Assembly (NCBI GenBank): GCA_964020155.1
Contig: OZ026554.1
Coordinates: 5,725,416 to 5,789,415 of the forward strand
Reading direction: 5' to 3'
Source of the DNA: Chondrilla cf. caribensis
Taxonomy: Eukaryota; Porifera; Demospongiae; Chondrillida; Chondrillidae
Length of the DNA stretch: 64,000 bases
The stretch's first letter is position 1. Every line of letters starts with the position of its first letter. The translations under genes were made by a program, and so were the position numbers. Below the pieces are notes generated by a model. That model was not told where the DNA came from. It made no database searches and worked only from the letters and a program-made list of their open reading frames with translations. Below, piece after piece: positions 16,769-57,170 of the stretch.

Positions 16769-18346
<1,578 letters not shown>

Positions 18347-18401: not shown

Positions 18402-21400
18402 ATGGCGGAACAAGACGTGAATTTAGACGTCGTCAAGGAATACCTGATCGACAATGGTGGTATAACTAGAAATGTTGATCTAGTAAGACATTTCAGAAAG
18501 TTTCTACAATCGGACGACGTTTCCAAAAAAGGTATTAGTTCAAGATTTGTTGTATAACGTCGTAGAGTACTCCTGTGTCATTGACGCTGTGTGTTTATCG
18601 CTCTAGAGAGAAATAGAGAAAAATTCAAGAACTTTGTAAACACTTTAGCTGCTGTAAAGAGTGATGGGGTGAGTTATGTATGCGTGTGTTCCTTTTCACG
18701 TCCTTGCTGGACGATCATCTATAGTGACCATGGTAATTCGAGCGTGTCTACCTGTACATCTGTGCGTTAACAGGGAGAAAAGTTTATTATTTTAAAGGCG
18801 AAGTATTACCCCTTAGAGTGGGGTGGAACTCTTCCTGGCCATATCAGGTACGTACTTGTTCAATTTCACTTTATTTGATGTTGAGATTAGGAGATAATTT
18901 GACCCCCTGTTGATGTTACTGTATATTATGTACTCACGTATTACTGGGTGTGCTTATATTGGGTGTCAGTGGGTGTGTTTGTATTGGGTGTCAGTGGGTG
19001 TGTTTGTATTGGGTGTCAGTGGGTGTGTTTGTATTGGGTGTCTTCTACAAAGCATTTGGTCCATTGAATACAGGAAAACCTCACCACATGTGGAATGTGC
19101 TAACACGATATCACACTCCCTCTCACCTACTACCATCTTTAACACTCCCTCTCACCTACTACCATCTTCAACGCTCCCTCTCACCTACTACCATCTTTAA
19201 CGCTCCCTCTCACCTACTACCATCTTTAACACTCCCTCTCACCTACTACCATCTTTAACACTCCCTCTCACCTACTACCATCTTTAACACTCCCTCTCAC
19301 CTACTACCATCTTCAACGCTCCCTCTCACCTACTACCATCTTTAACGCTCCCTCTCACCTACTACCATCTTTAACGCTCCCTCTCACCTACTACCATCTT
19401 TAACACTCCCTCTCACCTACTACCATCTTTAACACTCCCTCTCACCTACTACCATCTTTAACACTCCCTCTCACCTACTACCATCTTTAACGCTCCCTCT
19501 CACCTACTACCATCTTCAACGCTCCCTCTCACCTACTACCATCTTTAACGCTCCCTCTCACCTGCTACCATCTTTAACGCTCCCTCTCACCTACTACCAT
19601 CTTTAACGCTCCCTCTCACCTACTACCATCTTTAACACTCCCTCTCACCTACTACCATCTTTAACACTCCCTCTCACCTACTACCATCTTTAACACTCCC
19701 TCTCACCTACTACCATCTTCAACGCTCCCTCTCACCTACTACCATCTTTAACGCTCCCTCTCACCTGCTACCATCTTTAACACTCCCTCTCACCTACTAC
19801 CATCTTTAACGCTCCCTCTCACCTACTACCATCTTTAACGCTCCCTCTCACCTACTACCATCTTTAACACTCCCTCTCACCTACTACCATCTTTAACACT
19901 CCCTCTCACCTACTACCATCTTTAACGCTCCCTCTCACCTACTACCATCTTTAACACTCCCTCTCACCTACTACCATCTTCAACGCTCCCTCTCACCTAC
20001 TACCATCTTTAACGCTCCCTCTCACCTGCTACCATCTTTAACACTCCCTCTCACCTACTACCATCTTTAACGCTCCCTCTCACCTACTACCATCTTTAAC
20101 GCTCCCTCTCACCTACTACCATCTTTAACGCTCCCTCTCACCTACTACCATCTTTAACGCTCCCTCTCACCTACTACCATCTTTAACACTCCCTCTCACC
20201 TACTACCATCTTTAACACTCCCTCTCACCTACTACCATCTTTAACACTCCCTCTCACCTACTACCATCTTTAACACTCCCTCTCACCTACTACCATCTTG
20301 ATTGGTTTGTGTAGGAGTGTGTCAAGTCCAAGTGGACGCTCGGCCTCCTTCCAAGATGTATCTGAGCCTCGTGCACCTTCACCTACTAAGCTCTATAAGC
20401 ACACTCTCCACATCCCGGGTCTGATGGTCCCTGTGGACAACAGTGACAATGAATCCGATTGTACAACTTCCTTATCGACGTACTCCTTGGAGTCAAGTGC
20501 ATCTGTCAATCACCTTCGAAGGCAGACCAACCCCCCGAAAGTCCTCCAAAATGGTGCGAAGAGTGCAAAGAGAAGTCGAACCGCCAGTGTGGACGACAAG
20601 CAAGGATCTCGCCAAACCACCCAAGGTACAAGGGGTAGGGGGGTTGTTTTCAGTACTTTTTGTGTGTTAACACTTTTATCATTGTAGCTTTCCTAGGTGC
20701 TGGCTTACTGATCCAACATAAGGTTTGTTTGTTTAGCGTATAAAGGACCTGTGTGTGGTGGCTCAAAATCAACTATGCTCTTTTTATGCATATGTGATAT
20801 GTGGTTGTGTACTCACACAGTTGGATAGCTCCACAACATCTCTGTCTCAAAATTCTGGGGAGGACAAGGAAGAGACATCTTGTACGATGAGTTATTCAAA
20901 TATTTTGTATGTATCATCTGTGATCTTATGTTATTTTTATCTTTAGCCATTAGCACGTCCTACTCTGCTTTTGACTATGAATTAATGGATCCTTCAGAGC
21001 ATGATTGGATTCTGTTTGCAGTGCAAAACAACATTGATGGAATACAGAGACTGATCGAAGAAGAACCTCATTTGGTGCACAGAAAGGTATGGATTAAATA
21101 GGACTCTTTGATGATGTGCTTAAAGATTTCTTTCTCACTTGGTAGGATTTCATCACTGTAAGTCAACTGTGTTGGTCCTCTTTGCTAGTCTCCTTCACGT
21201 TTTAATTGTTTTGTCTTCTCCTGGATATCATTTCTTCTGTGCAGGGAGTGAGTAGTGGGCGTGGCTGTGGGTGGGGTATGTCATTTATGACGGTCACTAC
21301 ATGCTGTATCCCCTTGTAGTACACAGCCACTCACTGGGCTGCAATGAACGGGAGTGATCAGATGCTATCAACACTGTTGCTCAGTGGTGCTGACGTCAAT

Positions 21401-22468
21401 GTCAAGTCTGTGAGTTGTGCCTCCTGTATCTCCATCATGCGTACCTGTAATTATTGCTCCTCTTGCCCATTTCGTCATAGGCTGTAAGTTACACAATGTC
21501 CAGTGGTATCTTGCCGTGCTAACAACCTTGTCTATCTTTTTTGCTCAACACGCATGATGACTTTCAACTGCTGATGATCTTCAGATGGTAAGTGTGTGGA
21601 TAAATCGTATTTTGTTTGTGTTTCTGTATTGAGTAGTTTACATCTTTCGATTAGGGAGCAACCCCCCTTCACTTAGCTGCTCAGAGGGGATACGATCACA
21701 TTATTCAGCTGTTAATAACTCATTATGGTACGTTGTTGGCTGCTTTCCTGGTCTTTGTTGTATCCACTTGGGTTTCCCGCTTTGTGCAGGTGCTATGGCT
21801 GATGTACGGGACCACAGTGGAAAGAGACCCAAAGATATAGCTAAAAAAACTATATCTACAAGAAGCCAAGGTATCCTTGATGTCCCAGCAAGTCCGCTGT
21901 CATGGTGAACTGGTCTCCAATTAATTTGAACTTGAATCTGAACATTATCACTTCGATTTTATGTTAGGAATCATATACGTACCTGTAACTTCATCACCAT
22001 ATATACATAATAGCAGTTATATATAGTATGTATGTGTAAGTATACATATATGAACATTGGCAGTATTTTTACCCAGAGGTGGTGTAACGTGTTGATACTC
22101 TGCAATGCACTCCATTTGTTTAGAGTTATTGGACATTGGGTTGGCAAACTCCAGTTCAAAGAAAATGGGGAAGAAGAAAGGAATAAATCGGAAAAAATCT
22201 AAGTCATTCTCTGGTGGCAGTTTGCCTTCACTTAATTTCTTTTCTACTGATGAAGTGGAGATTGATGATGAAGCAGATGGTGTTAGAAAGGTGGATAAGT
22301 ATGAACCATGTTTGTGTGTATTGCCGGTCACACTTCAATTCTTTGTGTGTGCAGTTCTTCAAGTCCCCTCTTAGCAGCTTCCGTAGAACGTGGAGTATTC
22401 GTCGTAGAAGCTCTTCTGGAGTGAAGAGGACAGGGTCAGGGACTGTATTTGACTGGACTCATGAATAG
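18402..22468 (+). CDS. SOWAH: SOWAH (sosondowah) ankyrin-repeat protein
   Basis: Protein with an N-terminal SOWAH winged-helix-like domain and C-terminal ankyrin repeats; molecular role poorly known. Exons: 18402-18531, 18607-18668, 18774-18847, 20315-20625, 20688-20722, 20821-20881, 20947-21086, 21146-21157, 21320-21409, 21481-21483, 21585-21587, 21655-21727, 21790-21870, 22124-22290, 22355-22468; 451 aa, phases all consistent. The N-domain reads VVKEYLIDNGGITRNVDLVRHF ... NREKFKNFVNTLAAVK. The family hallmark before the ankyrins is EHDWILFAVQNN ... HLVHRK-DFIT, then THWAAMNG and TPLHLAAQRGYDHI. DFIT is a 12-nt exon; Ala and Met at the end of ankyrin repeat 1 come from two successive 3-nt exons. 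The C-terminus is basic and Ser-rich. Exon 5 (20688-20722) is the least certain. Intron 3 holds a 1.2-kb minisatellite. Confidence 0.88.
18949..19046 (+). repeat. Short 25-bp tandem repeat in SOWAH intron 3
   Basis: About four copies of a 25-bp sequence containing GGGTGTCAGTGGGTGTGTTT, about 100 nt after the donor, upstream of the main array of the same intron. Confidence 0.8.
19110..20300 (+). repeat. 29-bp minisatellite in SOWAH intron 3
   Basis: About 41 copies of a pyrimidine-rich 29-bp unit (ACTCCCTCTCACCTACTACC...) with CAC/CGC and TTTA/TTCA variants. Runs of several variant units recur in the same order, a sign of multi-unit duplication. The array ends just before the exon 4 acceptor at 20314. 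Confidence 0.95.
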
Positions 22469-24243: not shown

Positions 24244-25192
24244 ACAGCCAAAAGACCTCTGAAGTCAAAAACAAATGGCTGCCCTCCAAAATTTGCCTCC
24301 ACCACCTCACCATGTGTCTGTAGCCCAACTGTAGGATACAGGCTCATCTGAGGCTGGGAAGAGCAATATTAGATTGAATCTAGTATAAAATGATTTTGGT
24401 GTACAATAACGGTTAAATCATGGCATTTCTATTCATAAGAGTGGAAAATATGAACAGAGACTCACTGGGATATCTCTAAAAGCAATACCTGCATTGCAAA
24501 CAGTGATAAAATCAACAGATTAAAACCTTGCACCATCACCACTAATAAACTCACCCAAGTTAATACCATTCTTGGTGTAGAATACACTCCTTTCCATAAG
24601 GTTAATACCACATCCAATGACATCCCCAGTGGTGAACGTAGGTCCATAGTCCTCTCCAGCTGCTGATGAAGCAAATGCCTTGCCATCATCGGCATGATAG
24701 CCATAAGAGCACTTCTCCCATCCAGGAAGCCGGCTGAGTGGAGCAGATTTATCTGATAGTCCTATGCCAACATATCTAAAAAGAAAAACGTCATTACGCT
24801 AAGCCTATGGATATAATACACACAACAGGGGCAACAGAATAACATCACAGAAGACATACAAACAAACCCATTTTTCCCTTTACTTATGATTTTTATTTCA
24901 TAATAGTAGATTCCACATGCCGCAGGTATGGGGTGCGTGCCACGAACTGAAGCAGCGTCTTTCAGACTCTTCCCAGGACCTGTGGATACCGTCCATGTCA
25001 TAACCATTAAAACCGAATGACGTTAACTTTACACAAACCTCCTTTGTAGTGAACCCTCAAATTGTTGTTCGATAAACCTAAATAATTGTACTTCTCTCTA
25101 GGATTCCACGATGTCGTTAATGGTGTTTCCGCGACATTCACTTTAGGATAAAAGGACTTCAGACGTTCTGATAGCCTCAACTGATCCTCCAT
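22788..25192 (-). CDS. RANBP9: RANBP9/RANBP10-like CTLH-complex scaffold
   Basis: SPRY-LisH-CTLH-CRA subunit of the GID/CTLH ubiquitin ligase; one gene appears to stand for both vertebrate RANBP9 and RANBP10. Minus-strand exons: 25192-25039, 24979-24868, 24775-24555, 24488-24466, 24353-24246, 24138-24056, 23998-23886, 23821-23375, 23305-23172, 23104-22993, 22930-22788; 549 aa, all phases fit. [90 protein letters not shown] and [19 protein letters not shown]. Lis[86 protein letters not shown] and the [12 protein letters not shown] end. The long N-terminal Pro/Gln tract of vertebrate RANBP9 is absent. It converges on SOWAH, with 319 bp between stops. Confidence 0.95.
24174..24243. repeat. (CA)n at RANBP9/10 exon 5 donor
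   Basis: On the minus strand the intron begins GTAAGTGTGTGTG: the GT repeat grows directly out of the donor after exon 5 (last base 24246). Confidence 0.93.
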
Positions 25193-30379: not shown

Positions 30380-33300
30380 AAATACAAATGCACAGACACA
30401 CTCCTGGACCTAGTACAGTCATTCTGATAACAAAAAGATGCATTTTGATGCCGACCAAAAATTCTCCCCACTGCCCATATGCCACATATAATAAAATGTA
30501 TGTTCTTTTGTATGTTTATAAGTGTAATATGCCTTGTTGTGATGACCTGAGCAATTGGACAATTCTTTGCTGGTCACCAAGGGCTAGCCAGTGTCCGTGC
30601 TAAACTCACCAACACATTTTGGGAAGAATTGAGATTGTCCTGAGTGCGCTATAAGTCTCGTGGTGACAAGCAAAAAAATGTCATTGTTTTGGCTTGTCAC
30701 CACGACCTCTCCTGTGTGCACGTAATGCATCATAGTTCTAATACGAATGCACAGACACACTCCTGGACCTAGTACGGTCCTTCTGATAACAAGAAAGATG
30801 CATTTTAATGTCGACCAAATATTCTCCCCAGTGCCCATATACCACATATAATAAAATGTATATACTTTTGTATGTATATAAGTGTAATATGCCATGTGGT
30901 GATGACCTGAGCAATTGGACATTTCTTTGCTGGTCACCAAGGGCTAGCCAGTGTCCATGCTAAACTCACCAACACAATTTCGTAAGAATTGAGATTGTCC
31001 TGAGTGCGCTATAAGCCTCGTGGTGACAAGCAAAAATGTCAATTTTTTGAGTTGTCACCACGGCCTCTCCTGTGTGCACGTAATGCATCATAGCTCGAAT
31101 CCGAATTCACAGACACACTCCTGGACCTAGTAGCTACCTTCTGATAGCAAAATAGATGCATTTTGATGTTGTCTGAAATTTCTCCCCATTGCCACATATA
31201 ATAATATGCATATACTTTGTATGTAGATTCATATATAAGTTTTCAACGCCTTGTGGTGATCACCTAAGCAGTTTGAGATTTCTTTGCTGGTCACCAAGGG
31301 CTACCCAGTGTCCATACCTAACTCACCAACACAATTTGGGAAGCATTCTGATTGTCCTGAGTGCGCTATAAGACTCGTGGTGACAAGCAAAAAACTGTCA
31401 ATTTTTGGTCTTGTCACCACTTCCTCTCCTGTGTGCACGTGATGCATCATAGCTCAAATCCAAATGCACAGACACACTCCTGGAACTGGTAGCTACCTTC
31501 TGATAGCAAAAAGTTGCATTTTGATGTCGTCCAAAATTTCCCCCTATTGCCAAAATATATACTTTGTATTTCGATTCATATATAAGTGTATTACGCCTTG
31601 TGGTGATCACCTAAGCATAGGAGAGAAAACTTTAAGCACCTTTTTGCATATCTCATGGGAGAAGGGGCGTGTCAACCTAATATTTTAGACAGACCTAGCT
31701 GGGGACGTGAGCTAACTTCTGAAACAATTCCCATCTCAATAGGTGACCCGTAACCCCAGCTACATTGGAAGGTGCTTAATATTTTTTCAATGTATGGGAG
31801 AGTATAGGAGAGAAAACTTTAAGCACCTTTTTGCATAGCTCATAGGGGAGGGGGCGTGTCAACTTGATATTTTAGAAAGACCTAGCTGGGGATGTGAGCT
31901 AACTTCTGAAACAATTTGCATAGCTCATTGAGGAGGGGGCATGTCAACTTAATGTCGACCAAAATCTCCCCCTAGTGCCAATATATATACTTTGTATGTA
32001 GATTCATATATAAGTTTTCAACGCCTTGTGGTGATCACCTAAGCAATTTGAGATTTCTTTGCTGGTCACCAAGGGCTACCTAGTGTCCATGCCTAACTCA
32101 CCAACACAATTTCGTAAGCATTCTGATTGTCCTGAGTGCACTATAAGCCTCGTGGTGACAAGCCAAAAAATGTCAATTTTTGGTCTTGTCACCACGGCCT
32201 CTCCTGTGTGCACGTGATGCATCATAGCTCAAATCCGAATGCACAGACACACTCCTGGACCTGGTAGCTACCTTCTGATAGCAAAAAGTTGCATTTTGAT
32301 GTCAACCAAAATTTCCCCCTATTGCCAATGTATATACTTTGTATGTACATTCATATATGCGTGTATTACGCCTTGGGTGATCACCTAAGCAATTTGAGAT
32401 TTCTTTTCTGGTCACCAAGGGCTACCTAGTGTCCATGCCTAACTCACCAACACAATTTGGTAAGCATTCTGATTGTCCTGAGTGCGCTATAAGCCTCGTG
32501 GTGACAAGCCCAAAAAATGTCAATTTTTGGTCTTGTCACCACGGCCTCTCCTGTGTGCACGTGATGCATCATAGCTCAAATCCAAATGCACAGACACACT
32601 CCTGGACCTGGTAGCTACCTTCTGATAGCAAAAAGATGCATTTTGGTGTCGACCAAATTTCCCCCCAGTGTCACATATAATAAAATGTTTATACTTTGTA
32701 TGTACATTCATATATAAGTGTATTACGCCTTGTGGTGATCACCTAAGCAATTTGATATTTCTTTGCTGGTCACCATGGGCTACCTAGTGCCCATGCCTAA
32801 CTCACCAACACAATTTCGCAAGCATTCTGATTGTCCTGAGTGCGCTATAAGCCTCGTGGTGACAAGCCCAAAAAATGTCAATTTTTGGTCTTGTCACCAC
32901 GGCCTCTCCTGTGTGCACGTGATGAATCATAGCTCAAATCCAAATGCACAGACACACTCCTGGACCTGGTAGCTACCTTCTGATAGCAAAAAGTTGCATT
33001 TTGATGTCGACCAAAATTTCCCCCTATTGCCAATGTATATACTTTGTATGTAGATTCATATATGCGTGTATTACGCCTTGGGTGATCACCTAAGCAATTT
33101 AAGATTTCTTTGCCGGTCACCAAGGGCTACCTAGTGTCCATGCCTAACTCACCAACACAATTTCGCAAGCATTCTGATTGTCCTGAGTGCGCTATAAGCC
33201 TCGTGGTGACAAGCCCAAAAAATGTCAATTTTTGGTCTTGTCACCACGGCCTCTCCTGTGTGCACGTGATGCATCATAGCTCAAATCCAAATGCACAGAC

Positions 33301-36300
33301 ACACTCCTGGACCTGGTAGCTACCTTCTGATAGCAAAAAGGATGCATTTTGATGTCGACCAAAATTTCCCCCCAGTGCCACATAATATAATAGAATGTAT
33401 ATACTTTGTATGTACATTCATATATGCGTGTAATACGCCTTGTGGTGATCACCTAAGCAATTCGAGATTTCTTTTCTGGTCACCAAGGGCTACCTAGTGC
33501 CCATGCCTAACTCACCAACACAATTTCGCAAGCATTCTGATTGTCCTGAGTGCGCTATAAGCCTCGTGGTAACAAGCCCAAAAAATGTCAATTTTTGGTC
33601 TTGTCACCACGGCCTCTCCTGTGTGCACGTGATGCATCATAGCTCAAATCCAAATGCACAGACACACTCCTGGACCTGGTAGCTACCTTCTGATAGCAAA
33701 AAGGATGCATTTTGATGTCGACCAAAATTTCCCCCTATTGCCAATGTATATACTTTGTATGTAGATTCATATATAAGTGTATTACGCCTTGTGGTGATCA
33801 CCTAAGCAATTTGAGATTTCTTTGCTGGTCACCAAGGGCTACCTAGTGTCCATGCCTAACTCACCAACACAATTTCGCAAGCATTCTGATTGTCCTGAGT
33901 GCGCTATAAGCCTCGTGGTGACAAGCCCAAAAAATGTCAATTTTTGGTCTTGTCACCACGGCCTCTCCTGTGTGCACGTGATGCATCATAGCTCAAATCC
34001 AAATGCACAGACACACTCCTGGACCTGGTAGCTACCTTCTGATAGCAAAAAGGATGCATTTTGATGTCGACCAAAATTTCCCCCTATTGCCAATGTATAT
34101 ACTTTGTATGTAGATTCATATATAAGTGTATTACGCCTTGGGTGATCACCTAAGCAATTTGAGATTTCTTTTCTGGTCACCAAGGGCTACCTAGTGTCCA
34201 TGCCTAACTCACCAACACAATTTCGCAAGCATTCTGATTGTCCTGAGTGCGCTATAAGCCTCGTGGTGACAAGCCAAAAAAATGTCAATTTTTGGTCTTG
34301 TCACCACGGCCTCTCCTGTGTGCACGTGATGCATCATAGCTCAAATCCAAATGCACAGACACACTCCTGGACCTGGTAGCTACCTTCTGATAGCAAGAAG
34401 GATGCATTTTGATGTCGACCAAAATTTCCCCCTATTGCCAATGTATATACTTTGTATGTAGATTCATATATAAGTGTATTACGCCTTGTGGTGATCACCT
34501 AAGCAATTTGAGATTTCTTTTCTGGTCACCAAGGGCTACCTAGTGTCCATGCCTAACTCACCAACACAATTTCGCAAGCATTCTGATTGTCCTGAGTGCG
34601 CTATAAGCCTCGTGGTGACAAGCCCAAAAAATGTCAATTTTTGGTCTTGTCACCACGGCCTCTCCTGTGTGCACGTGATGCATCATAGCTCAAATCCAAA
34701 TGCACAGACACACTCCTGGACCTGGTAGCTACCTTCTGATAGCAAAAAGTTGCATTTTGATGTCGACCAAAATTTCCCCCTATTGCCAATGTATATACTT
34801 TGTATGTAGATTCATATATAAGTGTATTACGCCTTGGGTGATCACCTAAGCAATTTGAGATTTCTTTTCTGGTCACCAAGGGCTACCTAGTGTCCATGCC
34901 TAACTCACCAACACAATTTCGCAAGCATTCTGATTGTCCTGAGTGCGCTATAAGCCTCGTGGTGACAAGCCCAAAAAATGTCAACTTTTGGTCTTGTCAC
35001 CACGGCCTCTCCTGTGTGCACGTGATGCATCATAGCTCAAATCCAAATGCACAGACACACTCCTGGACCTGGTAGCTACCTTCTGATAGCAAGAAGGATG
35101 CATTTTGATGTCGACCAAAATTTCCCCCTATTGCCAATGTATATACTTTGTATGTAGATTCATATATAAGTGTATTACGCCTTGTGGTGATCACCTAAGC
35201 AATTTGAGATTTCTTTGCTTTTCACCAAGGGCTACCTAGTGTCCATGCCTAACTCACCAACACAATTTCGCAAGCATTCTGATTGTCCTGAGTGCGCTAT
35301 AAGCCTCGTGGTGACAAGCCCAAAAAATGTCAATTTTTGGTCTTGTCACCACGGCCTCTCCTGTGTGCACGTGGTGCATCATAGCTGAAATCCGAATGCA
35401 CAGACACACTCCTGGACCTGGTAGCTACCTTCTGATAGCAAAAAGGATGCATTTTGATGTCGACCAAAATTTCCCCCTATTGCCAATGTATATACTTTGT
35501 ATGTAGATTCATATATAAGTGTATTACGCCTTGTGGTGATCACCTAAGCAATTTGAGATTTCTTTGCTTTTCACCAAGGGCTACCTAGTGTCCATGCCTA
35601 ACTCACCAACACAATTTGGTAAGCATTCTGATTGTCCTAAGTGCGCTATTAGCCTCGTGGTGACAAGCCCAAAAAATGTCAATTTTTGGTCTTGTCACCA
35701 CGGCCTCTCCTGTGTGCACGTGGTGCATCATAGCTGAAATCCGAACGCACAGACACACTCCTGGTCCTGGTAGCTACCTTCTGATAGCAAAAAGGATGCA
35801 TTTTGATGTCGACCAAAATTTCCCCCTATTGCCAATGTACATACCTTGTATGTAGATTCATATATGCGTGTATTACGCCTTGTGGTGATCACCTAAGCAA
35901 TTTGAGATTTCTTTGCTGGTCACCATGGGCTACCTAGTGTCCATGCCTAACTCACCAACACAATTTGGTAAGCATTCTGATTGTCCTGAGTGCGCTATAA
36001 GCCTCGTGGTGACAAGCCCAAAAAATGTCAATTTTTGGTCTTGTCACCACGGCCTCTCCTGTGTGCACGTGGTGCATCATAGCTCAAATCCGAACGCACA
36101 GACACACTCCTGGTCCTGGTAGCTACCTTCTGATAGCAAAAAGTTGCATTTTGATGTCGACCAAAATTTCCCCCTATTGCCAATGTATATACCTTGTATG
36201 TAGATTCATATATAAGTATATTACGCCTTGGGTGATCACCTGAGCAATTTGAGATTTCTTTTCTGGTCACCATGGGCTACCTAGTGTCCATGCCTAACTC

Positions 36301-39300
36301 ACCAACACAATTTGGTAAGCATTCTGATTGTCCTGAGTGCGCTATAAGCCTCGTGGTGACAAGCCCAAAAAATGTCAATTTTTGGTCTTGTCACCACGGC
36401 CTCTCCTGTGTGCACGTGGTGCATCATAGCTGAAATCCGAACGCACAGACACACTCCTGGTCCTGGTAGCTACCTTCTGATAGCAAAAAGTTGCATTTTG
36501 ATGTCGACCAAAATTTCCCCCTATTGCCAATGTATATACCTTGTATGTAGATTCATATATGCGTGTATTACGCCTTGGGTGATCACCTGAGCAATTTGAG
36601 ATTTCTTTGCTGGTCACCATGGGCTACCTAGTGTCCATGCCTAACTCACCAACACAATTTGGTAAGCATTCTGATTGTCCTGAGTGCGCTATAAGCCTCG
36701 TGGTGACAAGCCCAAAAAATGTCAATTTTTGGTCTTGTCACCACGGCCTCTCCTGTGTGCACGTGGTGCATCATAGCTGAAATCCGAACGCACAGACACA
36801 CTCCTGGTCCTGGTAGCTACCTTCTGATAGCAAAAAGTTGCATTTTGATGTCGACCAAAATTTCCCCCTATTGCCAATGTATATACTTTGTATGTAGATT
36901 CATATATAAGTGTATTACGCCTTGGGTGATCACCTGAGCAATTTGAGATTTCTTTGCTGGTCACCATGGGCTACCTAGTGTCCATGCCTAACTCACCAAC
37001 ACAATTTGGTAAGCATTCTGATTGTCCTGAGTGCGCTATAAGCCTCGTGGTGACAAGCCCAAATATGTCAATTTTTGGTCTTGTCACCACGGCCTCTCCT
37101 GTGTGCACGTGGTGCATCATAGCTGAAATCCGAACGCACAGACACACTCCTGGTCCTGGTAGCTACCTTCTGATAGCAAAAAGTTGCATTTTGATGTCGA
37201 CCAAAATTTCCCCCTATTGCCAATGTACATACCTTGTATGTAGATTCATATATGCGTGTATTACGCCTTGGGTGATCACCTGAGCAATTTGAGATTTCTT
37301 TGCTGGTCACCATGGGCTACCTAGTGTCCATGCCTAACTCACCAACACAATTTGGTAAGCATTCTGATTGTCCTGAGTGCGCTATAAGCCTCGTGGTGAC
37401 AAGCCCAAAAAATGTCAATTTTTGGTCTTGTCACCACGGCCTCTCCTGTGTGCACGTGGTGCATCATAGCTGAAATCCGAATGCACAGACACACTCCTGG
37501 TCCTGGTAGCTACCTTCTGATAGCAAAAAGTTGCATTTTGATGTCGACCAAAATTTCCCCCTATTCCCAATGTATATACCTTGCATGTAGATTCATATAT
37601 GCGTGTATTACGCCTTGGGTGATCACCTGAGCAATTTGAGATTTCTTTGCTGGTCACCATGGGCTACCTAGTGTCCATGCCTAACTCACCAACACAATTT
37701 GGTAAGCATTCTGATTGTCCTGAGTGCGCTATAAGCCTCGTGGTGACAAGCCCAAAAAATGTCAATTTTTGGTCTTGTCACCACGGCCTCTCCTGTGTGC
37801 ACGTGGTGCATCATAGCTGAAATCCGAACGCACAGACACACTCCTGGTCCTGGTAGCTACCTTCTGATAGCAAAAAGTTGCATTTTGATGTCGACCAAAA
37901 TTTCCCCCTATTGCCAATGTATATACTTTGTATGTACATTCATATATAAGTGTATTACGCCTTGGGTGATCACCTGAGCAATTTGAGATTTCTTTGCTGG
38001 TCACCATGGGCTACCTAGTGTCCATGCCTAACTCACCAACACAATTTGGTAAGCATTCTGATTGTCCTGAGTGCGCTATAAGCCTCGTGGTGACAAGCCC
38101 AAAAAATGTCAATTTTTGGTCTTGTCACCACGGCCTCTCCTGTGTGCACGTGGTGCATCATAGCTGAAATCCGAACGCACAGACACACTCCTGGTCCTGG
38201 TAGCTACCTTCTGATAGCAAAAAGTTGCATTTTGATGTCGACCAAAATTTCCCCCTATTGCCAATGTATATACTTTGTATGTAGATTCATATATGCGTGT
38301 ATTACGCCTTGGGTGATCACCTGAGCAATTTGAGATTTCTTTGCTGGTCACCATGGGCTACCTAGTGTCCATGCCTAACTCACCAACACAATTTGGTAAG
38401 CATTCTGATTGTCCTGAGTGCGCTATAAGCCTCGTGGTGACAAGCCCAAATATGTCAATTTTTGGTCTTGTCACCACGGCCTCTCCTGTGTGCACGTGGT
38501 GCATCATAGCTGAAATCCGAACGCACAGACACACTCCTGGTCCTGGTAGCTACCTTCTGATAGCAAAAAGTTGCATTTTGATGTCGACCAAAATTTCCCC
38601 CTATTGCCAATGTACATACCTTGTATGTAGATTCATATATGCGTGTATTACGCCTTGGGTGATCACCTGAGCAATTTGAGATTTCTTTGCTGGTCACCAT
38701 GGGCTACCTAGTGTCCATGCCTAACTCACCAACACAATTTGGTAAGCATTCTGATTGTCCTGAGTGCGCTATAAGCCTCGTGGTGACAAGCCCAAAAAAT
38801 GTCAATTTTTGGTCTTGTCACCACAGCCTCTCCTGTGTGCACGTGGTGCATCATAGCTGAAATCCGAATGCACAGACACACTCCTGGTCCTGGTAGCTAC
38901 CTTCTGATAGCAAAAAGTTGCATTTTGATGTCGACCAAAATTTCCCCCTATTCCCAATGTATATACCTTGCATGTAGATTCATATATGCGTGTATTACGC
39001 CTTGGGTGATCACCTGAGCAATTTGAGATTTCTTTGCTGGTCACCATGGGCTACCTAGTGTCCATGCCTAACTCACCAACACAATTTGGTAAGCATTCTG
39101 ATTGTCCTGAGTGCGCTATAAGCCTCGTGGTGACAAGCCCAAAAAATGTCAATTTTTGGTCTTGTCACCACGGCCTCTCCTGTGTGCACGTGGTGCATCA
39201 TAGCTGAAATCCGAACGCACAGACACACTCCTGGTCCTGGTAGCTACCTTCTGATAGCAAAAAGTTGCATTTTGATGTCGACCAAAATTTCCCCCTATTG

Positions 39301-40892
39301 CCAATGTATATACTTTGTATGTACATTCATATATAAGTGTATTACGCCTTGGGTGATCACCTGAGCAATTTGAGATTTCTTTGCTGGTCACCATGGGCTA
39401 CCTAGTGTCCATGCCTAACTCACCAACACAATTTGGTAAGCATTCTGATTGTCCTGAGTGCGCTATAAGCCTCGTGGTGACAAGCCCAAATATGTCAATT
39501 TTTGGTCTTGTCACCACGGCCTCTCCTGTGTGCACGTGGTGCATCATAGCTGAAATCCGAACGCACAGACACACTCCTGGTCCTGGTAGCTACCTTCTGA
39601 TAGCAAAAAGTTGCATTTTGATGTCGACCAAAATTTCCCCCTATTGCCAATGTACATACCTTGTATGTAGATTCATATATGCGTGTATTACGCCTTGGGT
39701 GATCACCTGAGCAATTTGAGATTTCTTTGCTGGTCACCATGGGCTACCTAGTGTCCATGCCTAACTCACCAACACAATTTGGTAAGCATTCTGATTGTCC
39801 TGAGTGCGCTATAAGTCTCGTGGTGACAAGCCCAAAAATGTCAATTTTTGGTCTTGTCACCACAGCCTCTCCTGTGTGCACGTGGTGCATCATAGCTCAA
39901 ATCCGAATGCACAGACACACTCCTGGTCCTGGTAGCTGCCTTCTGATAGCAAAAGCCTAACCCTGAATTCAAAATTAACCCTAACCCTAACCCTAATAGC
40001 ATCTCTAACCCTAAAAATATTCATGACCTAACCCTAACCCTTCTTCAGTTCACCTGAGCAATTTGACATTTCTCTGCTGGTCACCAAGGACTACCTAGTG
40101 TCCATGCCTAACTCACCAACACAATTTGGTAAGCATTCTGATTGTCCTGAGTGCGCTATAAGCCTCGTGGTGACAAGCCCAAAAAATGTCAATTTTTGGT
40201 CTTGTCACCACGGCCTCTCCTGTGTGCACGTGGTGCATCATAGCTGAAATCCGAATGCACAGACACACTCCTGGTCCTGGTAGCTACCTTCTGATAGCAA
40301 AAAGTTGCATTTTGATGTCGACCAAAATTTCCCCCTATTGCCAATGTACATACCTTGTATGTAGATTCATATATGCGTGTATTACGCCTTGGGTGATCAC
40401 CTGAGCAATTTGAGATTTCTTTGCTGGTCACCATGGGCTACCTAGTGTCCATGCCTAACTCACCAACACAATTTGGTAAGCATTCTGATTGTCCTGAGTG
40501 CGCTATAAGCCTCGTGGTGACAAGCCCAAAAAATGTCAATTTTTGGTCTTGTCACCACGGCCTCTCCTGTGTGCACGTGGTGCATCATAGCTGAAATCCG
40601 AATGCACAGACACACTCCTGGACCTGGTAGCTACCTTCTGATAGCAAAAAGTTGCATTTTGATGTCGACCAAAATTTCCCCCTATTGCCAATGTATATAC
40701 CTTGTATGTAGATTCATATATGCGTGTATTACGCCTTGGGTGATCACCTGAGCAATTTGAGATTTCTTTGCTGGTCACCATGGGCTACCTAGTGTCCATG
40801 CCTAACTCACCAACACAATTTGGTAAGCATTCTGATTGTCCTGAGTGCGCTATAAGCCTCGTGGTGACAAGCCCAAAAAATGTCAATTTTTG
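30380..40892 (+). repeat. 347-bp satellite array, about 30 units
   Basis: Tandem units of 346-350 bp. The leftmost units (30380-32000) are diverged and interrupted at about 31615-31945 by an unrelated twice-repeated segment (GAGAGAAAACTTTAAGCACC...); the rightmost are nearly identical. Each unit has a perfect 10-bp palindrome GGTGATCACC and a hairpin with arms CGTGGTGACAAG / CTTGTCACCACG (for example 36352-36363 with 36387-36398) plus an inner CCAAAAA/TTTTTGG stem. Variant markers recur every four or three units between 37.0 and 39.5 kb. The 61-109-codon reading frames on both strands are by-products of the repeat. Confidence 0.95.
39955..40040 (+). repeat. Interstitial CCCTAA block inside the satellite
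   Basis: Degenerate CCCTAA repeats (AACCCTAACCCTAACCCTAA and shorter pieces) replace part of one 347-bp unit. Confidence 0.85.
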
Positions 40893-40941
40893 GTTAGGGT
40901 TAGGGTTAGGGTTAGGGTTAGGGTTAGGGTTAGGGCTAGGG
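40893..40941 (+). repeat. (TTAGGG)7 interstitial telomeric repeat
   Basis: Seven near-perfect TTAGGG copies mark the right end of the satellite; the last unit is cut within its hairpin (after AATTTTTGG). Confidence 0.95.
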
Positions 40942-44977: not shown

Positions 44978-45412
44978 ATGGCGTCCACAAGAAAGGACAA
45001 AGGGCCAATCGGTAGGTACAATTTGATTGACTCCGTGATTTATCTCGGTCAATTACGACTTTATGTATATTTCTTCCATCCTTTCTCCGTCTGATGTCGG
45101 ATCAGGTCGAAGCACGTGCAAGCTTAAGGTGATCACAGTTATTTAAGTATATGTATCTGACGTGTGGTAAGTGTTTATACCTTTATACCTTTCTTCTTGT
45201 CATCTTCCATGTAGTGTGGATGTGATACGGAATTCTTAGGTTGCGGTAAGTACAAATTGAATGTTAACAATGTAGCGTTTATTTCTTTGTTTCTTCCTTT
45301 CTATTTTTACGATGTCTTTGGAAGTCAGTCGAGGTCACCTCCATCTCCTCCCCTCCTCCACTCCTGGTCTCCCCAAGTCACAGCCAGTACACATCCTTCA
45401 ACAGTGTATCCA
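44978..45412 (+). CDS. 5' exons of an unrecognised Cys-containing gene
   Basis: Four joinable exons: 44978-45011 (MASTRKDKGPI), 45106-45128 (GRSTCKLK), 45215-45245 (CGCDTEFLGCG) and 45325-45412 (VSRGHLHLLPSSTPGLP...), phases 1, 0, 1, 2. Splice sites are good (GTAGGT, GTGATC, GTAAGT, GTAGGT). The CxxxCxC...C spacing could bind a metal, but the family is unknown to me. The fourth exon's donor opens directly into the 11.8-kb minisatellite; the first acceptor after the array (CTTCTCAG at about 57203) leads to an exon that stops soon in the expected frame. Either the gene ends otherwise or the later exons are beyond what I can see. Confidence 0.45.
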
Positions 45413-47268
45413 GTAGGTTAGCGATGTGTCCAGTGTTAGCAGTGTATCCAGTATGTTAGCAGTGTATCCAGTATGTTAGCGGTGTGTCCAGTATGTTAGC
45501 GGTGTGTCCAGTGTTAGTTGTGTGTCCAGTGTTAGCGGTGTATCCAGTATGTTAGCAGTGTATCCAGTATGTTAGCGGTGTGTCCAGTGTTAGTTGTGTG
45601 CCCAGTATGTTAGTGGTGTGTCAGCGGTGTATCCAGTATGTTAGCAGTGTGTCCAGTGTTAGCAGTGTATCCAGTATGTTAGCGGCGTGTCCAGTGTTAG
45701 TTGTGTGCCCAGTATGTTAGCAGTGTATCCAGTATGTTAGCGGTGTGTCCAGTGTTAGTTGTGTGTCCAGTGTTAATTGTGTGCCCAGTATGTTAGCAGT
45801 GTATCCAGTATGTTAGCGGTGTGTCCAGTGTTAGCGGTGTATCCAGTATGTTAGCAGTGTATCCAGTATGTTAGCAGTGTGTCCAGTGTTAGCAGTGTAT
45901 CCAGTATGTTAGCGGCGTGTCCAGTGTTAGTTGTGTGCCCAGTATGTTAGCAGTGTATCCAGTATGTTAGCGGTGTGTCCAGTGTTAGTTGTGTGACTAG
46001 TATGTTAGCAGTGTATCCAGTATGTTAGCGGTGTGTCCAGTGTTAGTTGTGTGCCCAGTATGTTAGTGGCGTGTCAGCGGTGTATCCAGTATGTTAGCAG
46101 TGTATCCAGTATGTTAGCGGTGTGTCCAGTGTTAGCGGTGTGTCCAGTATGTTAGCAGTGTGTCCAGTGTTAGTTGTGTGTCCAGTGTTAGCGGTGTGTC
46201 CAGTATGTTAGCGGTGTGTCCAGTATGTTAGCGGTGTGTCCAGTATGTTAGCGGTGTGTCCAGTGTTAGCGGTGTGTCCAGTATGTTAGCGGTGTGTCCA
46301 GTGTTAGTTGTGTGACTAGTATGTTAGCAGTGTATCCAGTATGTTAGCGGTGTGTCCAGTGTTAGTAGTGTGCCCAGTATGTTAGCAGTGTATCCAGTAT
46401 GTTAGCGGTGTGTCCAGTGTTAGTTGTGTGCCCAGTATGTTAGTGGCGTGTCAGCGGTGTATCCAGTATGTTAGCAGTGTGTCCAGTGTTAGCAGTGTAT
46501 CCAGTATGTTAGCAGTGTATCCAGTATGTTAGCGGCGTGTCCAGTGTTAGTTGTGTGCCCAGTATGTTAGCAGTGTATCCAGTATGTTAGCAGTGTGTCC
46601 AGTGTTAGCAGTGTATCCAGTATGTTAGCAGTGTATCCAGTATGTTAGCGGCGTGTCCAGTGTTAGTTGTGTGCCCAGTATGTTAGCAGTGTATCCAGTA
46701 TGTTAGCGGTGTGTCCAGTGTTAGTTGTGTGCCCAGTATGTTAGCAGTGTATCCAGTATGTTAGGGTGTGTCCAGTGTTAGTTGTGTGACTAGTATGTTA
46801 GCAGTGTATCCAGTATGTTAGCGGTGTGTCCAGTGTTAGTTGTGTGCCCAGTATGTTAGTGGCGTGTCAGCGGTGTATCCAGTATGTTAGCAGTGTGTCC
46901 AGTGTTAGCAGTGTATCCAGTATGTTAGCAGTGTATCCAGTATGTTAGCGGTGTGTCCAGTGTTAGCGGTGTGTCCAGTATGTTAGCGGTGTGTCCAGTA
47001 TGTTAGCGGTGTGTCCAGTGTTAGTTGTGTGTCCAGTGTTAGCGGTGTATCCAGTATGTTAGCGGTGTGTCCAGTGTTAGTTGTGTGTCCAGTGTTAGCA
47101 GTGTATCCAGTATGTATGTACTGTGTCTACCGTATGTACTGTGTGTACTGTGTACCATATGTACTGTGTCTACTGTGTGTACTGTGTACCGTATGTACTG
47201 TGTCTACCATATGTACTGTGTGTACTGTATGTACTGTGTGTACTGTATGTACTGCATGTACAGTATGT

Positions 47269-47300
<32 letters not shown>

Positions 47301-50300
47301 TACTGCATGTACTGTGTGTACTGTGTAGCTCATTTTGACACTGGTGTGTCTTGGCATGCTAGACATGTACGTACGTACGTATGTAGTTCTTCAAGGTTTT
47401 TTGTGCGGTGTGTCCAGTGTTAGTTGTGTGCCCAGTGTGTTAGCAGTGTATCCAGTATGTTAGCGATGTGTCCAGTGTTAGTTGTGTGCCCAGTATGTTA
47501 GCGGTGTATCCAATATGTTAGTGGTGTGTCCAGTATGTTAGTGGTGTATCCAGTGTTAGTTGTGTGTCCAGTGTTAGCAGTGTATCCAGTATGTTAGGGT
47601 GTGTCCAGTGTTAGTTGTTTGCCCAGTATGTTAGCAGTGTATCCAGTATGTTAGCGGTGTGTCCAGTATGTTAGCAGTGTATCCAGTATGTTAGGGTGTG
47701 TCCAGTGTTAGTTGTGTGTCCAGTGTTAGTTGTGTGCCCAGTATGTTAGCGGTGTATCCAGTATGTTAGCGGTGTATCCAGTATGTTAGCAGTGTATCTA
47801 GTATGTTAGTGGCATGTCCAGTGTTAGCGGTGTATCCAGTATGTTAGCGGTGTGTCCAGTGTTAGTTGTGTGCCCAGTATGTTAGCGGTGTATCCAGTAT
47901 GTTAGTGGTGTATCCAGTATGTTAGCGGTGTATCCAGTATGTTAGCGGTGTGTCCATTTCTAGTTGTGTGCCCAGTATGTTAGCGGTGTATCCAGTATGT
48001 TAGTGATGTATCCAGTATGTTAGTGGCATGTCCAGTGTTAGCGGTGTATCCAGTATGTTAGCGGTGTGTCCAGTGTTAGTTGTGTGCCCAGTATGTTAGC
48101 GGTTTGTCCAGTATGTTAGCGGTGTGTCCAGTGTTAGTTGTGTGCCCAGTATGTTAGCAGTGTATCCAGTATGTTAGCGGTGTGTCCAGTGTTAGTTGTG
48201 TGCCCAGTATGTTAGCAGTGTATCCAGTATGTTAGCGGTGTGTCCAGTGTTAGCAGTGTATCCAGTATGTTAGCGGTGTGTCCAGTGTTAGCGGTGTGTC
48301 CAGTATGTTAGGGTGTGTCCAGTGTTAGTTGTGTGTCCAGTGTTAGCGGTGTATCCAGTATGTTAGCGTATGTCCAGTGTTAGTGGTGTATCCAGTATGT
48401 TAGGGTGTGTCCAGTGTTAGTTGTGTGTCCAGTGTTAGCGGTGTATCCAGTATGTTAGCAGTGTGTCCAGTGTTAGCAATGTATCCAGTATGTTAGCAGT
48501 GTATCCAGTATGTTAGCGGTGTGTCCAGTGTTAGCGGTGTGTCCAGTATGTTAGCGGTGTGTCCAGTGTTAGTTGTGTGTCCAGTGTTAGCGGTGTGTCC
48601 AGTATGTTAGCGGTGTGTCCAGTATGTTAGCGATGTGTCCAGTGTTAGTTGTGTGCCCAGAATGTTAGCGGTGTATCCAGTATGTTAGCGGTGTATCCAG
48701 TATGTTAGCAGTGTATCTAGTATGTTAGTGGCATGTCCAGTGTTAGCGGTGTATCCAGTATGTTAGCGGTGTGTCCAGTGTTAGTTGTGTGCCCAGTATG
48801 TTAGCGGTGTATCCAGTATGTTAGTGGTGTATCCAGTATGTTAGTGGCATGTCCAGTGTTAGCGGTGTATCCAGTATGTTAGCGGTGTGTCCAGTGTTAG
48901 TTGTGTGCCCAGTATGTTAGCGGTGTGTCCAGTATGTTAGTGGTGTGTCCAGTGTTAGCAGTGTATCCAGTATGTTAGCGGTGTGTCCAGTGTTAGTTGT
49001 TTGCCCAGTATGTTAGCAGTGTATCCAGTATGTTAGCGGTGTGTCCAGTGTTAGTTGTTTGCCCAGTATGTTAGCGGTGTGTCCAGTATGTTAGCGGTGT
49101 GTCCAGTATGTTAGCAGTGTATCCAGTATGTTAGGGTGTGTCCAGTGTTAGTTGTGTATCCAGTATGTTAGCGGTGTGTCCAGTATGTTATCGGTGTATC
49201 CAGTATGTTAGCAGTGTATCCAGTATGTTAGCAGTGTATCCAGTATATTAGCGGCGTGTCCAGTGTTAGTTGTGTGTCCAGTGTTAGCGGTGTATCCAGT
49301 ATGTTAGCGTATGTCCAGTGTTAGTGGTGTATCCAGTATGTTAGCGGTGTGTCCAGTGTTAGTTGTGTGTCCAGTGTTAGCGGTGTATCCAGTATGTTAG
49401 CAGTGTGTCCAGTGTTAGCAATGTATCCAGTATGTTAGCAGTGTATCCAGTATGTTAGCGGTGTGTCCAGTGTTAGCGGTGTGTCCAGTATGTTAGCGGT
49501 GTGTCCAGTGTTAGTTGTGTGTCCAGTGTTAGCGGTGTGTCCAGTATGTTAGCGGTGTGTCCAGTATGTTAGCGATGTGTCCAGTGTTAGTTGTGTGCCC
49601 AGTATGTTAGCGGTGTATCCAGTATGTTAGCGGTGTATCCAGTATGTTAGCAGTGTATCTAGTATGTTAGTGGCATGTCCAGTGTTAGCGGTGTATCCAG
49701 TATGTTAGCGGTGTGTCCAGTGTTAGTTGTGTGCCCAGTATGTTAGCGGTGTATCCAGTATGTTAGTGGTGTATCCAGTATGTTAGCGGTGTGTCCAGTA
49801 TGTTAGCGGTGTGTCCAGTGTTAGCGGTGTGTCCAGTATGTTAGCGGTGTGTCCAGTGTTAGTTGTGTGACTAGTATGTTAGCAGTGTATCCAGTATGTT
49901 AGCGGTGTGTCCAGTGTTAGTAGTGTGCCCAGTATGTTAGCAGTGTATCCAGTATGTTAGCGGTGTGTCCAGTGTTAGTTGTGTGCCCAGTATGTTAGTG
50001 GCGTGTCAGCGGTGTATCCAGTATGTTAGCAGTGTGTCCAGTGTTAGCAGTGTATCCAGTATGTTAGCAGTGTATCCAGTATGTTAGCGGCGTGTCCAGT
50101 GTTAGTTGTGTGCCCAGTATGTTAGCAGTGTATCCAGTATGTTAGCAGTGTGTCCAGTGTTAGCAGTGTATCCAGTATGTTAGCAGTGTATCCAGTATGT
50201 TAGCGGCGTGTCCAGTGTTAGTTGTGTGCCCAGTATGTTAGCAGTGTATCCAGTATGTTAGCGGTGTGTCCAGTGTTAGCGGTGTGTCCAGTATGTTATC

Positions 50301-53300
50301 GGTGTATCCAGTATGTTAGCAGTGTATCCAGTATGTTAGCAGTGTATCCAGTATATTAGCGGCGTGTCCAGTGTTAGTTGTGTGTCCAGTGTTAGCGGTG
50401 TATCCAGTATGTTAGCGGTGTGTCCAGTGTTAGCGGTGTATCCAGTATGTTAGCGGTGTGTCCAGTGTTAGTTGTGTGACTAGTATGTTAGCAGTGTATC
50501 CAGTATGTTAGCGGTGTGTCCAGTGTTAGTAGTGTGCCCAGTATGTTAGCAGTGTATCCAGTATGTTAGCGGTGTGTCCAGTGTTAGTTGTGTGCCCAGT
50601 ATGTTAGCAGTGTATCCAGTATGTTAGCGGTGTGTCCAGTGTTAGTTGTGTGCCCAGTATGTTAGTGGCGTGTCAGCGGTGTATCCAGTATGTTAGCAGT
50701 GTGTCCAGTGTTAGCAGTGTATCCAGTATGTTAGCAGTGTATCCAGTATGTTAGCGGCGTGTCCAGTGTTAGTTGTGTGCCCAGTATGTTAGCAGTGTAT
50801 CCAGTATGTTAGCAGTGTGTCCAGTGTTAGCAGTGTATCCAGTATGTTAGCAGTGTATCCAGTATGTTAGCGGCGTGTCCAGTGTTAGTTGTGTGCCCAG
50901 TATGTTAGCAGTGTATCCAGTATGTTAGCGGTGTGTCCAGTGTTAGTTGTGTGCCCAGTATGTTAGCAGTGTATCCAGTATGTTAGGGTGTGTCCAGTGT
51001 TAGTTGTGTGACTAGTATGTTAGCAGTGTATCCAGTATGTTAGCGGTGTGTCCAGTGTTAGTTGTGTGCCCAGTATGTTAGTGGCGTGTCAGCGGTGTAT
51101 CCAGTATGTTAGCAGTGTGTCCAGTGTTAGCAGTGTATCCAGTATGTTAGCAGTGTATCCAGTATGTTAGCGGTGTGTCCAGTGTTAGCGGTGTGTCCAG
51201 TATGTTAGCGGTGTGTCCAGTATGTTAGCGGTGTGTCCAGTGTTAGTTGTGTGTCCAGTGTTAGCGGTGTATCCAGTATGTTAGCGGTGTGTCCAGTGTT
51301 AGTTGTGTGTCCAGTGTTAGCAGTGTATCCAGTATGTATGTACTGTGTCTACCGTATGTACTGTGTGTACTGTGTACCATATGTACTGTGTCTACTGTGT
51401 GTACTGTGTACCGTATGTACTGTGTCTACCATATGTACTGTGTGTACTGTATGTACTGTGTGTACTGTATGTACTGCATGTACAGTATGTTTTTTTTTTC
51501 TTTTTTTTTTTTTTTTTTACTGCATGTACTGTGTGTACTGTGTAGCTCATTTTGACACTGGTGTGTCTTGGCATGCTAGACATGTACGTACGTACGTACG
51601 TACGTACGTACGTATGTAGTTCTTCAAGGTTTTTTGTGCGGTGTGTCCAGTGTTAGTTGTGTGCCCAGTGTGTTAGCAGTGTATCCAGTATGTTAGCGAT
51701 GTGTCCAGTGTTAGTTGTGTGCCCAGTATGTTAGCGGTGTATCCAATATGTTAGTGGTGTATCCAGTATGTTAGTGGTGTATCCAGTGTTAGTTGTGTGT
51801 CCAGTGTTAGCAGTGTATCCAGTATGTTAGGGTGTGTCCAGTGTTAGTTGTTTGCCCAGTATGTTAGCAGTGTATCCAGTATGTTAGCGGTGTGTCCAGT
51901 ATGTTAGCAGTGTATCCAGTATGTTAGGGTGTGTCCAGTGTTAGTTGTGTGTCCAGTATGTTAGCGGTGTGTCCAGTATGTTAGCGGTGTGTCCAGTATG
52001 TTAGCAGTGTATCCAGTATGTTAGCAGTGTATCCAGTATGTTAGCGGTGTGTCCAGTATGTTATCGGTGTATCCAGTATGTTAGCAGTGTATCCAGTATG
52101 TTAGCAGTGTATCCAGTATATTAGCGGCGTGTCCAGTGTTAGTTGTGTGTCCAGTGTTAGCGGTGTATCCAGTATGTTAGCGTATGTCCAGTGTTAGTGG
52201 TGTATCCAGTATGTTAGCGGTGTGTCCAGTGTTAGCGGTGTATCCAGTATGTTAGCAGTGTGTCCAGTGTTAGCAATGTATCCAGTATGTTAGCAGTGTA
52301 TCCAGTATGTTAGCGGTGTGTCCAGTGTTAGCGGTGTGTCCAGTATGTTAGCGGTGTGTCCAGTGTTAGTTGTGTGTCCAGTGTTAGCGGTGTGTCCAGT
52401 ATGTTAGCGGTGTGTCCAGTATGTTAGCGATGTGTCCAGTGTTAGTTGTGTGCCCAGTATGTTAGCGGTGTATCCAGTATGTTAGCGGTGTATCCAGTAT
52501 GTTAGCAGTGTATCTAGTATGTTAGTGGCATGTCCAGTGTTAGCGGTGTATCCAGTATGTTAGCGGTGTGTCCAGTGTTAGTTGTGTGCCCAGTATGTTA
52601 GCGGTGTATCCAGTATGTTAGTGGTGTATCCAGTATGTTAGCGGTGTATCCAGTATGTTAGCGGTGTGTCCATTTCTAGTTGTGTGCCCAGTATGTTAGC
52701 GGTGTATCCAGTATGTTAGTGATGTATCCAGTATGTTAGTGGCATGTCCAGTGTTAGCGGTGTATCCAGTATGTTAGCGGTGTGTCCAGTGTTAGTTGTG
52801 TGCCCAGTATGTTAGCGGTTTGTCCAGTATGTTAGCGGTGTGTCCAGTGTTAGTTGTGTGCCCAGTATGTTAGCAGTGTATCCAGTATGTTAGCGGTGTG
52901 TCCAGTGTTAGTTGTGTGCCCAGTATGTTAGCAGTGTATCCAGTATGTTAGCGGTGTGTCCAGTGTTAGCAGTGTATCCAGTATGTTAGCGGTGTGTCCA
53001 GTGTTAGCGGTGTGTCCAGTATGTTAGGGTGTGTCCAGTGTTAGTTGTGTGTCCAGTGTTAGCGGTGTATCCAGTATGTTAGCGTATGTCCAGTGTTAGT
53101 GGTGTATCCAGTATGTTAGCGGTGTGTCCAGTGTTAGTTGTGTGTCCAGTGTTAGCGGTGTATCCAGTATGTTAGCAGTGTGTCCAGTGTTAGCAATGTA
53201 TCCAGTATGTTAGCAGTGTATCCAGTATGTTAGCGGTGTGTCCAGTGTTAGCGGTGTGTCCAGTATGTTAGCGGTGTGTCCAGTGTTAGTTGTGTGTCCA

Positions 53301-56300: not shown

Positions 56301-57170
56301 GGTGTGTCCAGTGTTAGCGGTGTGTCCAGTATGTTAGGGTGTGTCCAGTGTTAGTTGTGTGTCCAGTGTTAGCGGTGTGTCCAGTATGTTAGCGGTGTGT
56401 CCAGCATGTTAGCGGTGTGTCCAGTGTTAGTTGTGTGCCCAGTATGTTAGCAGTGTATCCAGTATGTTAGCGGTGTGTCCAGTGTTAGCAGTGTATCCAG
56501 TATGTTAGTGGTGTATCCAGTATGTTAGCGGTGTGTCCAGTGTTAGCGGTGTGTCCAGTATGTTAGGGTGTGTCCAGTGTTAGTTGTGTGTCCAGTGTTA
56601 GCGGTGTGTCCAGTATGTTAGCGGTGTGTCCAGTGTTAGCGGTGTATCCAGTATGTTAGCGGTGTGTCCAGTGTTAGCGGTGTGTCCAGTATGTTAGCGG
56701 TATGTCCAGTGTTAGTTGTGTGTCCAGTGTTAGCGGTGTGTCCAGTATGTTAGCAGTGTATCTAGTATGTTAGCTGTGTATCCAGTATGTTAGCAGTGTA
56801 TCCAGTATGTTAGCGGTGTGTCCAGTATGTTAGCGGTGTGTCCAGTGTTAGTTGTGTGCCCAGTATGTTAGCAGTGTATCCAGTATGTTAGCGGTGTATC
56901 CAGTATGTTAGCGGTGTGTCCAGTATGTTAGCGGTGTGTCCAGTATGTTAGCGGTGTGTCCAGTGTTAGTTGTGTGTCCAGTGTTAGCAGTGTATCTAGT
57001 ATGTTAGCGGTGTATCCAGTATGTTAGCAGTGTATCCAGTATGTTAGCGGTGTATCCAGTATGTTAGCAGTGTATCCAGTATGTTAGCGGTGTATCCAGT
57101 ATGTTAGCAGTGTATCCAGTATGTTAGCGGTGTGTCCAGTATGTTAGCGGTGTGTCCAGTATGTTAGGGT
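45399..57170 (+). repeat. 11.8-kb minisatellite of 18/20-bp units
   Basis: About 600 copies of two interleaved unit types, 20 bp (GTATCCAGTATGTTAGCAGT) and 18 bp (GTGTCCAGTGTTAGTTGT), with point variants. Interrupted twice, at about 47111-47405 and 51333-51645, by nearly identical blocks of TGTACTGTGTG repeats, a poly-T stretch and ACGTACGT, 4222 bp apart. Long runs of units between them are duplicated, so several-kb segments have been copied in tandem. It starts at a splice donor and ends in TTAGGGTTAGGG. Confidence 0.97.

Follow-up and report, generated by a model that had tools for sequence, protein, structure and literature searches.

Two successive one-codon exons, and a third close by, predicted in a SOWAH-family ankyrin gene of the sponge Chondrilla cf. 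caribensis

Main finding

Within the window, that is, the whole 64,000-nt stretch of sponge DNA analysed here, one gene carries between two of its ankyrin exons what we are fairly confident are two successive exons of a single codon each, GCT and ATG. This prediction is favoured because five lines of evidence converge on it: the fixed length of the corresponding segment in homologs, a near-unique splicing path, the splice-site score, spliced alignment, and an Ala at the first of the two positions in the protein of a relative, P0004. The first-pass annotation had proposed this pair and the sequence bears it out; the proposal was incomplete, since it had missed a 12-nt exon and yet another 3-nt exon, GGA, one intron upstream. 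These two additional exons are likely to be genuine, and a cluster of three one-codon exons with a 12-nt exon is a more striking object than the pair alone; coding sequence would here be divided unusually finely, making heavy demands on the splicing machinery. The boldest reading, to which we give rather better than even odds, is that 442 nt hold a 12-nt exon and three one-codon exons, the latter constitutive, that they include the first back-to-back pair, and that the six introns around them would be removed serially.

The gene and its family

The gene model and the features in the region of interest, all on the forward strand, are as follows.

18402..22468, forward strand: SOWAH-family gene, coding span; 16 predicted coding exons, 452 aa, GT-AG introns
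20947..21086, forward strand: exon 7; ends HLVHRK, phase 0
21146..21157, forward strand: exon 8, predicted 12-nt microexon GATTTCATCACT (DFIT); flanks TAG / GTAAGT
21245..21247, forward strand: exon 9, predicted 3-nt microexon GGA (Gly); flanks GTGCAG / GTGAGT
21320..21409, forward strand: exon 10, ankyrin; translates YTATHWAAMNGSDQMLSTLLLSGADVNVKS; phase 0 at both ends
21410..21480, forward strand: intron 10, 71 nt; GTGAGT...CATAG
21481..21483, forward strand: exon 11, predicted 3-nt microexon GCT (Ala); flanks CATAG / GTAAGT
21484..21584, forward strand: intron 11, 101 nt; GTAAGT...TTCAG
21585..21587, forward strand: exon 12, predicted 3-nt microexon ATG (Met); flanks CTTCAG / GTAAGT
21588..21654, forward strand: intron 12, 67 nt; GTAAGT...ATTAG
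21655..21727, forward strand: exon 13, ankyrin; translates GATPLHLAAQRGYDHIIQLLITHY plus one base and begins GATPLHLAAQRG; starts in phase 0

The protein sequence makes it likely that this gene belongs to the animal SOWAH (sosondowah) ankyrin-repeat family. The protein of a relative, P0004, is 83% identical to the window protein over 308 residues with no gaps; P0004 was also used in setting the exon borders of the 16-exon model. The ankyrin part matches Drosophila sosondowah (P0235) at 39% identity along 119 residues, and the N terminus does so at 32% along 72 (E 2e-12). The N-terminal winged-helix domain PF25877 (called SOWAHA-C winged helix in the source names) is a precomputed annotation on P0004 and P0005; in our local Pfam scan none of the window protein, P0004, P0005, P0235 and P0148 carries it. 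The SOWAH ankyrin signature, DF..G[YF]T..HWA followed by a turn of fixed length to TPLH, is present in the window protein only when the predicted microexons are included.

Searches for further copies yielded little. In the sponge's own genome there were 87 matches, and beyond the window gene these were ankyrin stretches at E 2.3e-8 or weaker; a search of viral and genome contig collections for relatives' DNA gave no confirmed match, and a 150-residue query returned 10 ankyrin proteins, all at most 50% identical.

With respect to its surroundings, the SOWAH gene lies directly downstream of a GMP reductase gene (16769-18343) with seven introns of 58-178 nt, one of which (17884-17946) yields on splicing a Cys codon at the position of a Gly in human GMPR2. 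A minisatellite (19116-20299; 29-bp units, about 41 copies, 97% match) takes up most of the third SOWAH intron. Further along the window are a 9-kb satellite array of 347-bp units (31952-40894; about 26 copies, 95% match) and an array of nearly 12 kb with strong GC skew, built of units of about 20 bp, GTGTGTCCAGTATGTTAGCG (45404-57167). A neighbouring RANBP9/10-like gene on the minus strand has, by spliced alignment, an exon of 23 nt (24466-24488), and on this ground other small exons are likely in the genome.

A turn of fixed length between exons 10 and 13

Joining position 21409 directly to 21655 produces VNVKS-GATPLH, with 31 residues from ankyrin Thr to Thr; inclusion of GCT and ATG produces VNVKS-A-M-GATPLH, with 33, exactly as had been claimed. 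The coordinates, flanks, phases and intron lengths originally given for the two exons all match the sequence, and the resulting introns of 71, 101 and 67 nt are, as had also been suggested, normal for this DNA: 18 of the 21 other introns in the window measure 58-118 nt. Splicing paths were sought with exact exon borders and GT/GC-AG introns no shorter than 45 nt, allowing one or two extra exons. Two paths alone add 6 nt, Ala-Met and an Ala-Cys variant (donor GTGGAT after acceptor GGTAAG), and the interval 21410-21654 offers no AG-N6-GT/GC candidate for a single 6-nt exon.

The most serious competitor of the pair is the direct joint, in which the turn would be two residues shorter and GCT and ATG would be chance sites. 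It is the simplest model, and we regard it as improbable. Of the 248 proteins fetched and examined, 50 carry the SOWAH signature (the window protein is left out of all counts), and among those that are complete in this region none is shorter. The pattern running from Ser to TPLH matches 43 of them, 40 with four residues in between; the six residues recorded for P0148, P0166 and P0182 are a regex overlap in which the pattern caught an earlier Ser. Seven signature homologs do not match the pattern: P0004, which ends there, and six others that by eye also have four residues, deviating by a Thr for the Ser or by another letter in TPLH. Ala-Met thus fits the family in length and not in identity, the homologs having [HNYF]-Gly at these positions. 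These proteins are not independent samples; those with an organism in their source name are crustaceans and most are nameless, among the best 120 of 4156 listed for this search.

A predicted 12-nt exon and a predicted third one-codon exon upstream

The interval 21087-21319, before the first ankyrin exon, contains both the GATTTCATCACT and the GGA candidates. Once DFIT and G are included, the protein reads HRK-DFIT-G-YTATHWAA. In 49 of the 50 signature homologs three residues separate DF from [YF]T, the exception (P0183) being a regex overlap, and a Gly directly precedes [YF]T in all 50. A 3-nt exon is therefore needed in this gene independently of the GCT and ATG pair, to supply that Gly, which argues against the direct joint.

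Seven GT-AG paths through this interval would add 15 nt. DFITG is the best of them, at 25.8 bits, and the runner-up reaches 11.5. Among 3250 stretches of the window none attains 25.8 bits, nor do any but two of 20,000 Markov introns; the same counts (0/3250 and 2/20,000) are obtained for any path reading DF..G. The candidate introns in this part of the gene then measure, in order, 59, 87, 72, 71, 101 and 67 nt, all GT-AG and all in phase 0; the six fit into 568 nt and surround the four small exons as well as an ankyrin exon of ordinary kind.

Splice-site scores, null tests and spliced alignment

Splice matrices were built from the 21 other window introns, a small set comprising 12 from the GMP reductase and RANBP9/10 genes (placed by spliced alignment) and nine from SOWAH. 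On both strands of the window there are 914 AG-N3-GT sites, among which GGA ranks first and ATG second. The GCT exon is 119th by score; of the 40 best sites listed, 29 lie in the 20-bp tandem array. GGA owes its rank to its acceptor, its donor being better than only 4 of the 21 in the training set; among the 21 training acceptors, only 9 are surpassed by those of GCT and DFIT. The ATG exon has a splice-site sum of 14.1 bits and the GCT exon one of 10.6, so that the pair reaches 24.7 bits, the best value in the intron. After masking of the SOWAH gene and the tandem arrays, 3250 stretches of the window of the same length were scored and none attained this value (maximum 21.8), a result that again speaks against the direct joint; 2 of 20,000 Markov introns did so. 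When the pair test was applied to four other introns of known genes, two had no path and the others gave -0.7 and 14.3 bits.

Simple counting is less decisive. At the score of GCT, which 119 of the 914 sites pass, the Poisson probability of two sites in the reported intron is 0.022, and that of three in both introns together 0.011, weaker results than those of the score tests. Taken by itself, the motif AGNNNGTRAGT shows no enrichment, either in the window (7 occurrences for an expected 7.4) or in the genome as a whole (136,996,226 bases, 37 contigs), where 5360 + 5670 occurrences compare with 6775 + 6616 for the reversed control. Both this lack of enrichment and the modest P of 0.022 are points in favour of the direct joint. 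A reading of the sites as chance motifs was rejected on score, position and fit to the protein, though the bare motif count is at chance. GTRAGT follows all four microexons and occurs in 4 of the 21 training donors (Fisher p = 0.006, in a comparison that is partly circular). Branch-point-like YTNAY motifs are found in five of the six introns, intron 10 having none.

A spliced aligner that accepts exons however short, with 17 introns from elsewhere than the tested region as its training set and costs expressed in half-bits, takes DFIT, G, A and M with each of the templates P0005, P0024 and P0235 at intron costs of 20 and 26. At 32, A (GCT) is dropped with all three; at 40, both A and M are dropped with all three, and with P0235 DFIT and G as well; at 48, DFIT and G are dropped with P0005 and P0235, and G with P0024. 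At costs of 40-48, then, the aligner chooses the direct joint. The splice-site support thus decreases from GGA through ATG to GCT. As a control, no 3-nt exon was added to the GMP reductase or RANBP9/10 genes at costs of 14, 20, 26 and 32; one RANBP9/10 acceptor was shifted by 6 nt between alignments, so the aligner's borders are not exact everywhere.

The Pfam ankyrin models were tried as arbiter and set aside as too insensitive, some variants scoring slightly higher than the full protein. For PF12796 the protein with Ala-Met scores 55.6 bits and that lacking both residues 55.0; keeping only A gives 55.8, keeping only M 56.9, and leaving out the upstream G 52.0. For Ank_5 the values are, in the same order, 32.2, 26.0, 25.5, 24.5 and 33.8. 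The near-equality with and without Ala-Met is a further point on the side of the direct joint.

A relative that ends within the turn

P0004 (source jgi; 320 aa; 5 member sequences on 12 contigs) contains VHKKDFITGYTAAHWAA, including DFITG, and has the C-terminal end NVKSAVSSLYSVNCSLCS. Its intron-free frame suggests that it derives from RNA. Directly after NVKS it reads A-V-S, and GCT-GTAAGT would encode precisely Ala-Val-Ser. The simplest reading is that P0004 represents a transcript that has lost its equivalent of intron 10 by splicing and kept that of intron 11. Its Ala right after NVKS is at odds with the direct joint and lends support to GCT, the weakest exon by score; it stops after the Ala and is thus silent on ATG.

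There is a second way to look at this protein: GCT might open an alternative last exon extending into intron 11 and yielding a truncated product, the 3-nt form being minor or absent. P0004 does end in this manner, and the window has an equivalent short open reading, which through intron 11 gives AVSYTMSSGILPC and then a stop. The tail of P0004, however, is AVSSLYSVNCSLCS, and by eye the two have AVS alone in common; such dissimilarity beyond AVS is what one expects of a retained intron and not of conserved coding sequence. Moreover, GCT is followed by GTAAGT, and the downstream ankyrin exons are open. We consider an alternative last exon improbable, and somewhat less probable than the direct joint.

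Other choices of splice site appear the least probable of all. Allowing the exon borders to slip by up to 12 nt gives 30 paths, the two exact ones included, of which Ala-Cys and Val-Met (4 nt more at the end of exon 10, followed by an exon of just TG) were scored against Ala-Met; both are formally open, but their splice-site sums of 5.0 and 3.7 bits compare poorly with 14.1 for ATG and 10.6 for GCT, and Val-Met conflicts with the Ala of P0004.

How such exons might be spliced

In the reading that we prefer, two successive one-codon exons with the DFIT and GGA exons upstream, GCT, ATG, GATTTCATCACT and GGA would together rebuild the ankyrin turns of the SOWAH protein. Exons this short would presumably escape exon recognition, each short intron being recognised instead as a unit (intron definition), and the introns may be removed one by one, in order. 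Each 3-nt exon could then double as the complete -3 to -1 part of the next donor. Such ordered removal is weakly hinted at by P0004, which would correspond to a stage at which intron 10 has been removed and intron 11 has not. Since the codons restore loops of fixed length, their inclusion is most likely constitutive. Constitutive microexons have been described as having stronger sites and shorter flanking introns (PMC4317164); here the introns measure 59-101 nt, and the site strengths are mixed.

Comparison with known microexons

All four predicted microexons are internal, AG/GT-bounded and within the 3-30 nt size range. Single 3-nt microexons are documented in NCAM, Drosophila troponin T, homothorax and human TLN1 (PMC8042270, PMC7392893, PMC4317164). 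The sponge gene resembles these in that one codon would be spliced as an exon. The accounts describe one 3-nt exon in each of those genes, several of them alternatively spliced, whereas SOWAH has a pair with a third about 235 nt upstream, all predicted to be constitutive. Human RPS24 has consecutive microexons of 3, 18 and 22 bp (PMC11162997); there too three microexons, one of them of 3 bp, follow one another, but RPS24 has a single 3-bp exon among the three and they are combined alternatively.

Plants offer a 1-nt exon in APC11/VPS55 and adjacent exons of 5 and 12 nt (PMC4674806, PMC8831610, PMC11096116). For such an exon, exon definition has been considered very unlikely and intron definition with serial removal more plausible (PMC4674806). 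The parallels are a size presumed too small for exon definition, a GTRAGT donor at the VPS55 exon and the serial removal proposed for APC11; the genes and the kingdom are different, and the accounts consulted describe no pair of one-codon exons.

The micro-exon genes (MEG) of schistosomes and tapeworms have series of small exons, some of only 3 bp, whose lengths are multiples of three (PMC10526429, PMC7653826). The MEG definition asks that at least half of the exons be micro (<70 nt, divisible by three), in runs of at least four (PMC7653826); the SOWAH gene falls outside it, with 4 such exons among its 16 coding ones, arranged as two pairs. MEG products are secreted parasite proteins, from genes with introns of up to 5 kbp and variation through exon skipping, whereas SOWAH encodes an ankyrin protein and the introns next to its microexons are 59-101 nt long. 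In the microexon literature that we searched, including that on sponges and Amphimedon and mostly outside subscription journals, we found no adjacent pair of 3-nt exons.

Significance

The locus illustrates how exons of this kind could escape annotation: a gene model without them loses a Gly that all 50 signature homologs have, together with two residues of a loop. A 3-nt exon would leave no space for the factors of both its splice sites next to each other. The predicted pair would consequently be a natural test of whether intron definition and ordered removal are enough for accurate splicing and, the locus being so compact, a single small minigene could serve to establish in which order the introns are removed and which splice sites are required.
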